From Ligilactobacillus agilis DSM 20509 (lineage in GTDB: Bacteria; Bacillota; Bacilli; Lactobacillales; Lactobacillaceae), in contig NZ_AYYP01000015.1 of assembly GCF_001436215.1 (NCBI RefSeq), positions 26,399 through 68,825 on the forward strand: a stretch of 42,427 nt of DNA. The letters are read 5' to 3'. The first letter of the stretch is position 1, and every line of letters begins with the position of its first letter. Positions 12,668 to 20,811 of this stretch are shown piece by piece. The translations under genes were made by a program, and so were the position numbers. The notes beneath the pieces are model-generated. The model saw only the letters and a program-made list of their open reading frames with translations. It did no database searches and was not told where the DNA came from.

Positions 12668-12689
12668 TTAAATTGATTGGGAGGACATG

Positions 12690-13535
12690 ATGGATTTTAT
12701 TAAAAATTTCAATAATAATGCCGCCTTGGTGGTTGATCAGGCTGGCAACGAGTGGATTGTCCTTGGTAAGGGGGTGGGCTTTGGTCAAAAGCTAGGCCAA
12801 CCTATTGATGAAGCTAAAATTGAAAGGCGTTTCAAAGCGGCGGGTTCTGATGATACTACGCTCGCAACGATTAAAAGCGTTAGTCCGCTAACCCTAGAAG
12901 CAACGAGTGCGGCAATTAAGTTGATTGAGGCGGAGTCGCCAATTAGGTTTGATAACTTCCAATACCTGGCCTTAGCCGATCACATTGACTTTGCAATTAT
13001 TCGCTCGGAAGGCGGAATTGACATGGAAGACCGCGCTTTACGCTGGGAGGTAAAACGTCTATTTAAGCAAGAATATAGCCTAGCTAAACGGGTGGTTAAA
13101 CTAATTAACGGCCTAACGGGGGCGTCTTTACCGGCAAGTGAAGAGGTATTGATGACCTATCACCTGGTCAATGCAGAATCCGATGGGGCTAAGGTTCAAG
13201 ATACAATGAAGATTACCAAGCTAATAGCTGGCATTGTAGATATTGTCCAATATCAGTATGGGCTGACCTTGGATGTGGAGTCTTTTAATTACACCCGCTT
13301 TATCGGTCATTTGCGGGCCTTTATGGTCCAAAGGTTAAGTAACGCGCGTCCATATGGGGCAGAGTTAGACGGTGAACTGTTAGTTTTAATGGAACAAAAA
13401 TACCCCCAGGCAGCTGTTACGGTTAACCGCATTGATAATTTTTTACAGACTAAGATGGGGTGGACCCTTAACCCAGATGATCGGGTCTATTTAATTTTAC
13501 ATGTTTGGCGGGTAACACATAGGCAAGAACAGTGA
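12690..13535 (+). CDS. BglG/SacT-family transcriptional antiterminator (CAT-RBD plus two PRDs), orphan
   Basis: The 281-residue protein has an N-terminal RNA-binding CAT domain (FIKNFNNNAALVVDQAGNEWIVLGKGVGFG, about 3-32). PRD1 has His in LADHIDFAI and MTYHLVNAE; PRD2 has His in IGHLRAFMVQRL and LILHVWRV. The four positions where PTS proteins phosphorylate the family appear conserved, so it looks functional. GGGAGG sits 5 nt before the ATG at 12690 (an ATG at 12687 is too close). These proteins normally sit beside a beta-glucoside or sucrose PTS gene. None is present here, so the target is unknown. Confidence 0.87.
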   Translation: MDFIKNFNNNAALVVDQAGNEWIVLGKGVGFGQKLGQPIDEAKIERRFKAAGSDDTTLATIKSVSPLTLEATSAAIKLIEAESPIRFDNFQYLALADHIDFAIIRSEGGIDMEDRALRWEVKRLFKQEYSLAKRVVKLINGLTGASLPASEEVLMTYHLVNAESDGAKVQDTMKITKLIAGIVDIVQYQYGLTLDVESFNYTRFIGHLRAFMVQRLSNARPYGAELDGELLVLMEQKYPQAAVTVNRIDNFLQTKMGWTLNPDDRVYLILHVWRVTHRQEQ

Positions 13536-15093: not shown

Positions 15094-15454
15094 GGGGATG
15101 TTTTGGATTCGACAGGTATAGGTCGAGCTTAAACTGCGTTTGGTTTTGCACACCTAATGTGCTCAGTTAAAATATAACTGCAAAAAATAACACAAACTCT
15201 TACGCTTTAGCTGCCTAATCGCAGTTGCGTAAATCCACCTGCCATCGTCCATGTGTCAGTGTTGGGTTTTATAATTAGTGGACTTACGCTTAATGCTCCC
15301 ACCTGAAGTGTTGAGAAGAGCTTAATCAGGTTAGCCTTTAATGTTAGCCCTGTTGCTTGGCGGAATTAAGGGTGAAGCTTAAATGAAGTAACTATGAGCG
15401 TAGACGTTTAAGTGGCGATATGCTTGGACGCGGGTTCAATTCCCGCCATCTCCA
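15094..15454 (+). ncRNA. ssrA: tmRNA (SsrA)
   Basis: The 361-nt RNA begins GGGGATGTTTTGGATTCGAC and ends with a T-arm (GCGGGTTCAATTCCCGC) and CATCTCCA. The first seven bases pair with the last stem bases to form the tRNA-like acceptor, with one G-U pair, and the 3' CCA is encoded. The resume codon GCA at 15180 opens the tag AKNNTNSYALAA ending at TAA (15216-15218), close to the AKNNNNSYALAA tags of lactobacilli. With SmpB it rescues stalled ribosomes and marks their products for Clp proteolysis. Confidence 0.97.
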
Positions 15455-15587
15455 TTTTAGAGGTTTGAGACGTTCTAAACGTTGTTATATCAAGCTTTAG
15501 GTTTTATAAACGTTTGGTAATGTAATGCTTTTTTAGGAAAAAGTATGCCGAAAGTATCCTAACAATTATAATAACTTGCCCTGGTGA

Positions 15588-15620
15588 GGACCGTATATTT
15601 TAGGTACGGTCCTTTTTTTT
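15588..15620 (+). terminator. Terminator downstream of tmRNA
   Basis: GGACCGTA (15588-15595) pairs with TACGGTCC (15605-15612), followed by eight T. The 133-nt gap after tmRNA holds a weaker hairpin (TTAGGA 15533-15538 with TCCTAA 15557-15562) and no convincing ORF. It is probably the tmRNA 3' trailer removed in maturation. Confidence 0.88.
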
Positions 15621-15669: not shown

Positions 15670-15698
15670 TTGCAGCCATTACATTTTAATGTTATTCT
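15670..15698 (+). promoter_or_regulatory. Promoter of the Thr-leader and permease unit
   Basis: TTGCAG (15670-15675) and TATTCT (15693-15698) are exactly 17 bp apart. Transcription would start near 15705, leaving a leader of about 220 nt before the permease. Confidence 0.7.
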
Positions 15699-15731
15699 AA
15701 TAAGGTATTCAAAGTAACGGAGGTTGTGCAA

Positions 15732-15788
15732 ATGTCATATCGCTATAAAGTTAAAGTTAATACAACCACCACCTCAATCACAATTTAG
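15732..15788 (+). CDS. Thr-rich leader peptide
   Basis: An 18-residue ORF, MSYRYKVKVNTTTTSITI, starts 8 nt after GGAGG (15719-15723). Five codons are Thr (ACA 15762, ACC 15765, 15768 and 15771, ACA 15780), four of them consecutive, alongside two Ile and one Ser. That composition recalls the E. coli thr operon leader, where Thr and Ile codons sense charged tRNA. It is followed by an attenuator-like structure (15793-15892). It is too short for database homology; the evidence is composition, ribosome site and context. Confidence 0.7.
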   Translation: MSYRYKVKVNTTTTSITI

Positions 15789-15792
15789 GGCT

Positions 15793-15892
15793 GGTTGAGT
15801 TATTTTGGAGTTTAGATTTTAAATAGAAATTACCAAGTCAACGAAAACCGCCAAGGAAAGTTAATTAAGTGGAGGTTTTGGTTGGCTTTTTT
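15793..15892 (+). promoter_or_regulatory. Candidate Thr attenuator (antiterminator and terminator)
   Basis: The terminator pairs 15837-15842 with 15881-15886 and 15844-15849 with 15874-15879 (one G-G mismatch), followed by six T (15887-15892). An alternative hairpin pairs GGTTGA (15793-15798) and TTGG (15805-15808) with CCAA and TCAAC (15833-15842), using up part of the terminator's 5' arm. A ribosome at the leader stop (15786-15788) would cover 15793-15798 and favour termination. A ribosome stalled at the Thr codons would leave it free and favour read-through. Pairings are from sequence; behaviour is inferred. Confidence 0.6.
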
Positions 15893-15924: not shown

Positions 15925-17313
15925 ATGAGTAAGGATAAAAAGGTCGCTAACCATAGCGGCTTAAATCGGTCTTTATCTTCGGGTCAGATGGAAATGATTG
16001 CGCTCGGGGGAACAATCGGGGTAGGTTTATTTATGGGCTCGACTTCGACAATCAAGTGGACGGGGCCGTCAGTGCTATTAGCCTATGCGGTAGTCGGAGT
16101 GGTCTTGTATGCAGTGATGCGCGCCTTGGGGGAAATGATTTACATTAGCCCTGGCACGGGTTCATTTGCCGATTATGCTACCCACTATATCCACCCGTTA
16201 GCCGGCTATTTGACCAAGTGGAGCAATATTTTTCAGTACGTGGTGGTTGGTATCAGTGAGGTAATCGCGGTTACCCAGTATCTGAATTATTGGTGGCCAA
16301 ACTTGCCTGACTGGGTTTCCGGGCTGGTAGTTGTCGTAACCTTGACCTTGGCTAACCTAGCTTCTGCTAAGGCCTACGGGACCTTGGAATTTTACTTTGC
16401 GATGATTAAGGTAGTTACGATTGTCTTAATGATTATCCTGGGCCTATTGGTTATCTTCTTAGGGTTAGGAAATGGCTGGCATCCAGTCGGGTTGGCTAAC
16501 CTATGGCAACATGGTGGCTTCTTTACCGGTGGTTTTAAGGGCTTTATGTTCTCCTTGTCAATCATTGTTGGTTCTTATCAAGGAATTGAATTATTAGGGA
16601 TTACTGCTGGTGAGGCGCAAAATCCTAAGCATGCCATCGTGGCTTCAGTTAAATCGATTGTCTGGCGGATTTTAATCTTTTATATTGGGGCAATTTTTGT
16701 AATCGTAACTATCTATCCGTGGAACCAGCTAGCCGCGGTGGGTTCGCCGTTCGTGGAAACTTTCACTAAAGTCGGGATTGCCGGAGCGGCCGGGATTATC
16801 AACTTTGTAGTACTAACAGCGGCTATGTCAGGGGCCAACTCAGGGATTTATAGTTCCAGCCGAATGCTTTATAAGCTAGCGCTCGATAAGGAGGCACCGG
16901 GAGTATTTGCTAAATTATCTAAGCATATCGTTCCTAACGTAGCAATCTTAACTATTTCTGGCGGGATTTTGATTGGCTTTGTCCTCAACATTGTATTGTC
17001 GTTACTAAGCAAGTCATCTGAAAACCTCTTTGTGATTGTTTATAGTTCCAGCGTGTTACCAGGGTTAGTGCCATGGTTTGTAATTTTACTGTCTGAATTA
17101 CGGTTTAGACGCCAAAATCAGGCTAGTCTAGTAGATCATCCTTTCAAGATGCCACTTTATCCCTGCTCTAACTACTTAGCGATTATTTTCTTATTGGTAA
17201 TCGTACTCTTTATGTTTATTAACCCAGATACCCGGGTGTCTGTTTCCGTCGGGGCGGTCTTCTTATTAGGCTTATCATTGCTTTACTATGTTAAGCATGG
17301 CCGGCAAAAATAA
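15925..17313 (+). CDS. Amino-acid permease (APC superfamily, AAT-like), probably threonine-linked
   Basis: The 462-residue transporter has about twelve membrane helices. Its N-terminal signature MEMIALGGTIGVGLFMGSTSTIKWTGPS is the conserved APC substrate-binding turn in helix 1. VGSYQGIELLGITAGEAQNPK and SGANSGIYSSSRMLYKLA are the family motifs in the later helices. It imports amino acids by proton symport. The family alone does not give the substrate; the Thr-rich leader suggests threonine or a related small amino acid. GAGGAA lies before the ATG. The gene is monocistronic, with a terminator at 17323. Confidence 0.88.
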   Translation: MSKDKKVANHSGLNRSLSSGQMEMIALGGTIGVGLFMGSTSTIKWTGPSVLLAYAVVGVVLYAVMRALGEMIYISPGTGSFADYATHYIHPLAGYLTKWSNIFQYVVVGISEVIAVTQYLNYWWPNLPDWVSGLVVVVTLTLANLASAKAYGTLEFYFAMIKVVTIVLMIILGLLVIFLGLGNGWHPVGLANLWQHGGFFTGGFKGFMFSLSIIVGSYQGIELLGITAGEAQNPKHAIVASVKSIVWRILIFYIGAIFVIVTIYPWNQLAAVGSPFVETFTKVGIAGAAGIINFVVLTAAMSGANSGIYSSSRMLYKLALDKEAPGVFAKLSKHIVPNVAILTISGGILIGFVLNIVLSLLSKSSENLFVIVYSSSVLPGLVPWFVILLSELRFRRQNQASLVDHPFKMPLYPCSNYLAIIFLLVIVLFMFINPDTRVSVSVGAVFLLGLSLLYYVKHGRQK

Positions 17314-18583: not shown

Positions 18584-19309
18584 ATGAAATTATTAATGGT
18601 GGAAGATAATAAGTCTGTTTCTGAAATGATGTCGATGTTTTTTAAAAAGGAACAATGGGATGTTGAGTACGCCTATGATGGCGAAGAAGCAGTCGAAAAG
18701 TTTAAGCAGGCTCCAGATAGTTGGGACATGGTTACGCTTGACCTAAACTTACCTAAAAAAGACGGGATGCAAGTGAACGCTGAAATTCGGGCAATTTCCA
18801 AAACAGTTCCGATTATTATTTTGACTGCCCGTGATTCGGAAAGTGACCAAGTTTTAGGCTTGGAAATGGGGGCTGATGATTATGTAGTCAAACCCTTCTC
18901 ACCGATTACCTTAATTGCGCGGATTAAGGCTTTACACCGGCGGGCTGAAATTCCTAGTGTCAAAGTGGCTAACGTTCTTAATGACACCGAGGTTTACGAC
19001 GTGGTCACAGATCACTTTAAGCTTAATACGAAGACGCGTGAAGCCTTCTTGTTTGATAAACAGATTAATGATTTAACGCCCAAAGAATTTGATTTATTAA
19101 AGACCTTAGCCCAAAAACCAAGACAGGTCTTCTCCCGCGAACAGCTATTACAATTGGTCTGGGATTATGAATACTATGGGGATGAACGGACCGTTGATGC
19201 CCACATTAAGAAATTACGGCAGAAGTTAGAAAAGGTTGGTCCACAGGTAATCCAAACCGTCTGGGGGGTCGGTTATAAATTCGATGATTCTGAGGTAAAA
19301 CTTAAATGA
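18584..19309 (+). CDS. OmpR/PhoB-type response regulator
   Basis: The 241-residue regulator has a receiver domain with acidic pocket E7/D8, phospho-acceptor D53 (MVTLDLNLPKKDG), Thr in IILTARDS and Lys in DDYVVKPFS. A C-terminal winged helix follows (LTPKEFDLLKTLAQKPRQVFSREQLLQLVWDYEYYGDERTVDAHIKKLRQKL). AGAGAGGGG precedes the ATG. Its TGA overlaps the kinase ATG by 4 nt, so the two are co-translated. The signal and regulon are unknown; a role as the missing Pho regulator cannot be excluded but nothing adjacent supports it. Confidence 0.92.
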   Translation: MKLLMVEDNKSVSEMMSMFFKKEQWDVEYAYDGEEAVEKFKQAPDSWDMVTLDLNLPKKDGMQVNAEIRAISKTVPIIILTARDSESDQVLGLEMGADDYVVKPFSPITLIARIKALHRRAEIPSVKVANVLNDTEVYDVVTDHFKLNTKTREAFLFDKQINDLTPKEFDLLKTLAQKPRQVFSREQLLQLVWDYEYYGDERTVDAHIKKLRQKLEKVGPQVIQTVWGVGYKFDDSEVKLK

Positions 19310-20811
19310 AATTAATCTATCAACAAATGTTGGCCTTCTTTGTGGTCATTATTACTTTGTTGGTAATTTTAGGGGCCTCATTTTTCCATTTAATGAGAGA
19401 AAATGTCTACCAATCTACTTGGCAACAAATGGAGACCTACGCTTATAGCTTGAAGAGTACTTCCTTGAAGTTAGTCAACACTTCTAATGGTGAACAAATC
19501 GCCCTAAATGTTAGCAACTTGGAAATCAGTGAGTTACTCCTTCAAAACCAAAAGGTTCACTTCACAATCTACACCGGACGTGATAAGGTCCTGTACCCTT
19601 TGGACGGGTTTCAGTCAGTGATTTCTAAAACTGATTGGCAAAAACTGCAGGCGGGGCAAATTTTGCGGCGGCGCAAGGATATTGGGGATCGAAAAAAGGT
19701 TAACCAAAAACAGTTGAGCACGTCCCAAAATAAACTGAGTTCCGCCCAAAAACAGCTCCCTAATTGGGGTAAGCAAGTTATCACAACCGATGTCTTCGTA
19801 CCCTGTTTTAACTCGCAAGGTAAGTTAGTGGCAGTTATTTCAGTCGGGGCAATGGTTTCTAATATCGAATCAAGTATTAAGGAAATCCAAAAGAGCTTGA
19901 TTTATGCCCTGCTAGTTTCGGCGCTTCTAGGGATTTTAATTAGTTATATCCTGGCTCACTATAGTACCAAACGGATTAGCCGCTTACGTAAGGCCAGTCA
20001 CCAGATTGCCGGAGGTAATTTTGACGTTCAGATTGAAAATAACGGCCGTGATGAGCTTGATTATTTGGCCGCCGATTTCAATAAAATGGCTAGCTCATTA
20101 AAGGAGTCGCAAGAAGAAATTAAGCGGCAAGAAGAACGACGGCGCCAGTTTATGGCTGACGCGGCCCATGAAATGCGGACCCCACTAACTACGATTAACG
20201 GTCTCCTAGAAGGATTAGCTTACGATGCCATTCCTGAAGAAAGCAAGGGCCAAAGTATCGAGTTGATGCGCAATGAAACCAAGCGCTTAATTAGGCTAGT
20301 TAACGAAAATTTAGATTATGAAAAGATTCGGAGTGGGGCGATTAGCCTATCGAAATCTAAATTTGATGCCGTTACCGTAATTCATAACCTGGTTGAACAG
20401 TTACAACAAAAGGCCCAGGAAAGTAATGATCGCTTTGAGTTGGCCTTGCCTAAGCAGTTAGAAGTCTACGCTGATTATGACCGCTTCGTGCAAATTTTAT
20501 TTAACGTGATGCAAAATGCGGTCCAGTTTACCGATGATGGGGTGATTAATATTAGCGCTGAACGTGGCTTTAATGAAGTCATAATCCGGATTACTGATAC
20601 TGGAATTGGAATGAGCCAAGAGCAGTTGCGCAATATCTGGGAGCGTTATTACAAGGCTGACCCATCACGTAATAATACCAAGTATGGAGAATCCGGCTTG
20701 GGCTTAGCAATTGTCCACCAGCTAATGCAGTTGCACCAAGGTAAAATCGAGGTAACTAGTCAAGAGGGAAAGGGGACGACCTTTAGCTTAACTTTCCCTA
20801 GCCCTAAGTAA
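19306..20811 (+). CDS. Membrane sensor histidine kinase
   Basis: The 501-residue kinase has TM1 (about 8-30), an extracellular sensor domain of about 165 residues with a Gln/Lys/Ser-rich stretch (about 124-152), and TM2 (about 198-220). HAMP follows (SKRISRLRKASHQIAGGNFDVQIENNGRDELDYLAADFN), then a HisKA domain with the phospho-acceptor H288 (MADAAHEMRTPLTT). The HATPase_c domain shows the N box (LFNVMQNAVQFTDD), G1 (ITDTGIGM) and G2 (GESGLGLAIV). It is the partner of the response regulator upstream. A bidirectional terminator follows. Confidence 0.92.
   Translation: MKLIYQQMLAFFVVIITLLVILGASFFHLMRENVYQSTWQQMETYAYSLKSTSLKLVNTSNGEQIALNVSNLEISELLLQNQKVHFTIYTGRDKVLYPLDGFQSVISKTDWQKLQAGQILRRRKDIGDRKKVNQKQLSTSQNKLSSAQKQLPNWGKQVITTDVFVPCFNSQGKLVAVISVGAMVSNIESSIKEIQKSLIYALLVSALLGILISYILAHYSTKRISRLRKASHQIAGGNFDVQIENNGRDELDYLAADFNKMASSLKESQEEIKRQEERRRQFMADAAHEMRTPLTTINGLLEGLAYDAIPEESKGQSIELMRNETKRLIRLVNENLDYEKIRSGAISLSKSKFDAVTVIHNLVEQLQQKAQESNDRFELALPKQLEVYADYDRFVQILFNVMQNAVQFTDDGVINISAERGFNEVIIRITDTGIGMSQEQLRNIWERYYKADPSRNNTKYGESGLGLAIVHQLMQLHQGKIEVTSQEGKGTTFSLTFPSPK

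Follow-up and report, generated by a model that had tools for sequence, protein, structure and literature searches.

Upstream of an amino-acid permease gene of Ligilactobacillus agilis DSM 20509 lies a short open reading frame with a run of threonine codons, followed by a terminator. The question is whether transcription of the permease gene is attenuated in response to threonine. We analysed a stretch of 42,427 nucleotides containing this locus (hereafter, the window), together with the corresponding loci of related genomes. Judging from the sequence comparisons, ribosome-mediated transcription attenuation by charged tRNA-Thr, acting upstream of a ThrP-like permease, is very probably the correct explanation, and the best of those considered.

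Leader and permease in the window

All leader elements described in the first-pass annotation were re-found in place when the sequence of the window was checked: the promoter, the GGAGG motif, the 18-codon threonine-rich ORF, the GGTTGA arm and the U6 terminator. They are all on the forward strand. The promoter consists of the −35 hexamer TTGCAG (15670-15675) and the −10 hexamer TATTCT (15693-15698) separated by 17 nucleotides, the latter being an extended −10 element with TG one base to its 5′ side. The promoter scan made no call at 15670-15698, as the −35 hexamer has three of six consensus matches and the scan requires four. TTGCA and TATTCT are kept at a similar spacing in most Ligilactobacillus relatives examined. 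Since the tmRNA gene ssrA (15094-15457) is situated just upstream of the leader, with a terminator-like site (15586-15614) in between, the leader is presumably transcribed from a promoter of its own.

The leader peptide ORF, MSYRYKVKVNTTTTSITI, occupies positions 15732-15788 (ATG at 15732, stop codon TAG at 15786-15788) and is preceded by the Shine-Dalgarno sequence GGAGG (15719-15723). Five of the 18 codons encode threonine, four of them in a row (ACA ACC ACC ACC, 15762-15773) and the fifth being ACA at 15780-15782. Of the 14 ORFs on both strands of the window that start with ATG, span 10-40 codons and have a Shine-Dalgarno sequence, this is the sole one with a run of four threonine codons. 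Thus, the leader has what is expected of an attenuator, a short ORF with a Shine-Dalgarno sequence and tandem codons for the same amino acid, and its translation is predicted.

The fold of the 193-nt leader has z = −2.77, equalled by two of 200 shuffles. A comparison of the leader with 4227 Rfam families yielded two unrelated families only up to E 10 (E 6.7 and 6.9), with nothing at the gathering level. The Rfam model of the threonine operon leader (presumably RF00506) did not match the leader, and the T-box model (RF00230) had no match anywhere in the window.

The gene downstream (15925-17313, forward strand) encodes an APC amino-acid permease of 462 aa. It matches the amino acid permease family PF00324 with 337 bits over residues 23-455 (gathering cut-off 24.6), and the best of 21 NCBIfam models is NF047867, ThrP, with 581.3 bits, below the curated cut-off of 850 bits. 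By these matches, the permease is a ThrP-like homologue; in the nearest relative (G006) it is 88% identical. E. coli YifK/ThrP is a bifunctional threonine/serine transporter that takes threonine and, to a lesser extent, serine (PMC10070963), and the L. agilis permease would likewise import threonine and serine. The leader had been proposed to give a substrate clue beyond homology. This did not hold, as the best NCBIfam match is already ThrP, though below the cut-off: the leader agrees with homology on the substrate rather than adding to it. It does support the substrate prediction for the ThrP-like permease family.

Threonine auxotrophy was considered as a general reason for such control and was not supported: the L. 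agilis genome has matches over the cut-off to both thrB and thrC. In one relative that has the leader (G013), however, there is no match to thrC.

The window also contains a two-component system (18584-20811), whose best NCBIfam matches, PieR with 293 bits (cut-off 450) and PieS with 430 bits (cut-off 850), stay under the cut-off, and a BglG/LicT-type antiterminator gene (12687-13535; 222.7 bits, cut-off 300).

Alternative hairpins and ribosome positions

The transcript can form alternative hairpins from four arms. Arm 1, the protector (15773-15780), pairs with arm 2 at 15792-15799; arm 2 (15789-15813) has either arm 1 or arm 3 as its partner, forming the antiterminator in the latter case; arm 3 (15827-15853) supplies both the 3′ strand of the antiterminator and the 5′ strand of the terminator; and arm 4 (15870-15888) is the 3′ strand of the terminator, its duplex with arm 3 having −23.6 kcal/mol and running into the U6 tract (15887-15892). 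Both mutually exclusive hairpins noted at first are present, but the protector hairpin, which completes the classical 1:2 / 2:3 / 3:4 set, had been missed. Similarly, GGTTGA (15793-15798) is indeed an antiterminator arm, but as part of arm 2 in a broader, gapped pairing of 15789-15813 with 15827-15852.

In 24 distinct leaders, 92.6% of the cells of the 1:2 helix are paired, compared to at most 52.3% in slid controls, and 12 of 5000 permutations were as low for this pairing, as would be expected of a protector hairpin. A point against is that the helix varies little: one pair is changed on both sides, which was matched by 47 of 500 shuffles.

For the 2:3 duplex the mean energy of own pairs of arms was −18.52 kcal/mol against −14.94 kcal/mol (sd 0.71) for permuted ones (23 cluster representatives), and none of 5000 permutations was as low; hence arms 2 and 3 covary between lineages. 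In 26 of 27 leaders the energy was lower than the mean of the shuffles, and in 26 of 27 it was lower than the foreign-genus mean, but only 16 of the 27 ranked among the best 5% when compared with shuffles. In the window by itself a fraction of 0.07 of 300 shuffles paired equally strongly, which is suggestive, and convincing together with the relatives. The antiterminator duplex of the window is not exceptional, and the case for the attenuator rests on the relatives.

With the best T run taken for each, all 27 leaders have a hairpin in front of it; of the 56 distinct leaders, 55 have a hairpin before a T run, the exception being L134 with a shorter U tract. The pairing analyses hence point to a mutually exclusive antiterminator and intrinsic terminator. 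Relative to the leader stop codon (n = 55), arm 2 starts at −23 to +3 and ends at −11 to +25 bases, so that it would be under or beside a ribosome positioned at the stop.

We then compared folds for different ribosome positions, with the stall placed on the codon that precedes ACC-TCA and the ribosome edge 14 bases further on. In all 26 leaders a stalled ribosome gave more 2:3 pairs (mean 16.9) than a ribosome at the stop codon (mean 2.6). With no ribosome the mean is 7.9, below that of the stalled state, but the difference is next to nothing in several leaders (L040, L043, L047 and L061 among others). The window without a ribosome and before arm 4 is mixed, 2:3 contributing 10.8 pairs and 1:2 contributing 4.2. 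These points count against the attenuator, as the folds do not clearly predict termination by default. Also against it, in full-length folds 3:4 pairs in all three ribosome states, and therefore the switch must be kinetic, chosen during transcription.

Potential pairing of the Shine-Dalgarno region with the threonine codons

The Shine-Dalgarno region of the leader (arm 0, 15719-15728, forward strand) can pair with 15761-15770 at −11.6 kcal/mol. In 56 leaders the own mean was −12.11 compared to −10.08 for permuted partners, and in 23 cluster representatives −12.4 compared to −10.24 (sd 0.35), with none of 5000 permutations as low in either case. The pairing is matched within lineages: 16 of the 23 clusters beat both foreign means, although the cluster of the window does not. 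Examples of the helix are found in L061, L125, L052 and L062. By this folding analysis, the helix may keep the initiation of leader translation at a low level as long as no ribosome occupies the codons. The start of the E. coli trp leader is likewise sequestered.

Leaders of related permeases

Of 177 loci with a permease relative the best 80, all named, were kept, and a threonine-rich leader precedes the permease in 28 of them. The core was recognized by the covariance model in 27 of these leaders, while that of L. equi (L036) is divergent and was found by an ORF scan; L036 was excluded from the core alignment, the 1:2 helix count, the position folds and the 56-leader test of Shine-Dalgarno pairing. 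The leader-bearing genera are Ligilactobacillus, Weissella, Pediococcus, Furfurilactobacillus and Limosilactobacillus, with peptides such as MLYFRALINLNNNTTTTTSTTTI, MIKQYRHNSITVITTTTTSTTILAGWAL and MLLLSLNSQTTSTSTTTTVGG. The N-terminal residues vary, whereas the threonine run and its frame are conserved. When the leader start was picked by Shine-Dalgarno strength alone, blind to threonine, the threonine frame was read in all 56 distinct leaders, and the core was open throughout in all 56. Of this set 26 leaders had been pre-picked for a threonine ORF and 30 had not, a few being the same locus with another start codon. Alternative frames of the same core letters would yield His- or Pro-rich peptides.

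In a quick tree of 89 permeases, where long branches meet and the exact forks are not relied on (L110 was excluded due to its short frame), a branch of 46 rows (support 100) contains not a single leader. All 30 rows with a leader are among the other 35 near rows, and it is from these that the branch arises. The leader label requires six changes on the tree, and five of these 35 rows (L034, L038, L045, L048 and L065) are without a leader; both are points against the attenuator. At one of these loci, L065 of Limosilactobacillus caecicola, there are promoter-like hexamers and 1:2-like and terminator-like hairpins at about 1300-1500 but the leader ORF is absent; this may be an attenuator in decay. 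In L038 and L048 a terminator-like hairpin is all that remains, and L034 and L045 have neither a leader nor a T-box motif. Thus, the expectation that orthologous leaders would carry threonine codons was largely borne out, as the threonine run, frame, stop geometry and pairings recur in five genera, but not for the five leaderless near relatives. Overall, the frame in the relatives, the geometry and the alternative pairings argue for the attenuator interpretation.

Specificity of the leader core

A core model of 55 positions (R1) was searched in 397 genomes of the family, yielding 47 strong matches (E at most 3.7e-5) in 47 genomes. The permease directly follows 46 of them, and the 47th (L152) is situated at a contig end. 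The L134 locus, with its short U tract, has an interrupted permease frame; the genome is 83% complete and 7% contaminated, and the interruption is possibly an assembly error. Beyond the strong matches there were 28 weak places, of which 18 were inspected: two are true ThrP leaders, four are Ser/Thr leaders preceding another permease, and the remaining 12 are without a permease. At E 0.001 and with stricter filters, which lose weak matches, R1 matched in six of 246 genomes of the order, all from the same family, and among 299 genomes of the phylum only in the L. agilis genome. The latter contains just one further R1 match up to E 1 (E 0.78). In a text search, neither a threonine leader nor a T-box core was found at four of its eight further APC matches and at one SteT-like homologue.

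Proposed mechanism and alternatives

We propose that transcription would start near 15706, and a ribosome would load at GGAGG and translate the leader. If charged tRNA-Thr is scarce, the ribosome would stall on the threonine codons and cover arm 1, leaving arm 2 free for arm 3; the terminator would not form and the permease gene would be transcribed. Vice versa, if threonine is plentiful, the ribosome would reach the stop codon and cover arm 2, and the 3:4 hairpin would end transcription. The Shine-Dalgarno helix may hold leader translation low until opened by a ribosome.

The strongest alternative, which we still regard as rather unlikely, is that the attenuator senses threonine and serine jointly through an invariant serine codon, the permease carrying both. 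Indeed, all 26 aligned cores share the TCA codon, the E. coli homologue carries serine besides its preferred threonine, and Ser/Thr-rich leaders precede a second type of permease (see below). However, TCA lies in the 1:2 helix and the pairing alone could account for its conservation, and threonine codons outnumber serine codons in the 27 listed leaders.

It is very improbable that the leader answers a general slowing of ribosomes by antibiotics or stress: leaders of the erm/msr type, e.g. msrD, are known in Firmicutes, but here the threonine run and the frame are kept while the N-terminal residues vary, the gene encodes an amino-acid permease, and T-boxes of related permeases were read as threonine-specific. 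We give equally little credence to a ligand-binding RNA or a protein-binding hairpin with an incidental small ORF. The strong conservation of the core nucleotides and the 1:2-like hairpin kept in L065 without a leader ORF would fit it, but the leader reads the threonine frame in 56 of 56 cases and lacks a gathering-level Rfam match. Least probable is that a terminator upstream of the gene acts constitutively, with no regulation and an ORF of no significance, given that the alternative arms change in a matched fashion and the placement is nearly exclusive to one permease.

Among known systems, the threonine operon leader of E. coli (thrL) is an attenuator with a threonine-coding leader peptide. 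The proposed attenuator resembles it in the peptide, the 1:2 / 2:3 / 3:4 logic and the U-tract terminator, and differs from it in that the target is a permease rather than biosynthesis, the window has no match to an Rfam leader family, the Shine-Dalgarno region can pair with the threonine codons, and the leader is confined, among the genomes sampled, to a single family of Bacillota. Leader-peptide attenuation is a proteobacterial textbook case with few reports from Firmicutes, where T-boxes dominate (PMC2965389, PMC9413887, PMC5794164). The Leu-rich attenuator peptide of S. aureus ilv-leu is also an amino-acid leader peptide in a low-GC Gram-positive bacterium, but with Leu (and Ile) codons, a biosynthetic operon and support from mutants and reporters (PMC5794164). 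His leader peptides, described from bacilli, Eubacteriales and Erysipelotrichales, are similar in standing where other Firmicutes have T-boxes, but contain His codons and precede hisS paralogues or his operons (PMC2965389, PMC9413887); for his genes of Lactobacillales T-boxes are reported (PMC9413887). In the open-licence PMC literature searched, we found no threonine leader of this kind in lactic acid bacteria. In the present case the conserved threonine version precedes an importer and not a biosynthetic operon.

Possible exchange with T-boxes, and a second permease type

Four related permeases are preceded by a T-box, first spotted by eye (L020, 70.6 bits; L022, 107.6; L024, 90.9; L025, 84.8), one of them passing the Rfam gathering score of 93. 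The specifier, as read from the alignment, is ACU (threonine) in all four, and the four rows are on one side of a tree branch (support 93). A text search in L031-L110 found no T-box core. In the threonine T-box of amino-acid permeases the charging of tRNA-Thr similarly controls an APC permease by antitermination, but the RNA binds tRNA directly and there is no leader peptide (PMC2494555). Among related permeases, one and the same tRNA seems to be sensed in two unrelated ways, and the leader peptide and the T-box provide a tractable case of regulator exchange. A more far-reaching version, in which permease attenuators of the Lactobacillaceae for threonine (in the Weissella group, for serine and threonine) replace the threonine T-box, and through the Shine-Dalgarno helix a threonine-sensing ribosome gates the loading of the next one, is put forward tentatively, with chances somewhat short of even.

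Ser/Thr-rich leaders were observed before a different APC permease at seven loci, all in one group of genomes (g36, the Weissella group): L165 (624-676), L166 with an identical leader, L174, L175, L178 and L179 (reverse strand), and L177. Terminators are present in the six loci examined in detail, L166 being excluded due to its sharing the leader of L165. The one permease of this type that was scanned had the L-type amino acid transporter as its best NCBIfam match (185 bits, far under the cut-off), and SteT-like is a label of our own. SteT is a Ser/Thr exchanger, and control by a threonine T-box is described in the B. cereus group (PMC2494555). The Ser/Thr leaders suggest a substrate for this second permease type. 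The SteT-like and ThrP-like genes are convergent in three genomes (G408, G420 and G181), and in G408 and G420 their leaders are about 3 kb apart.
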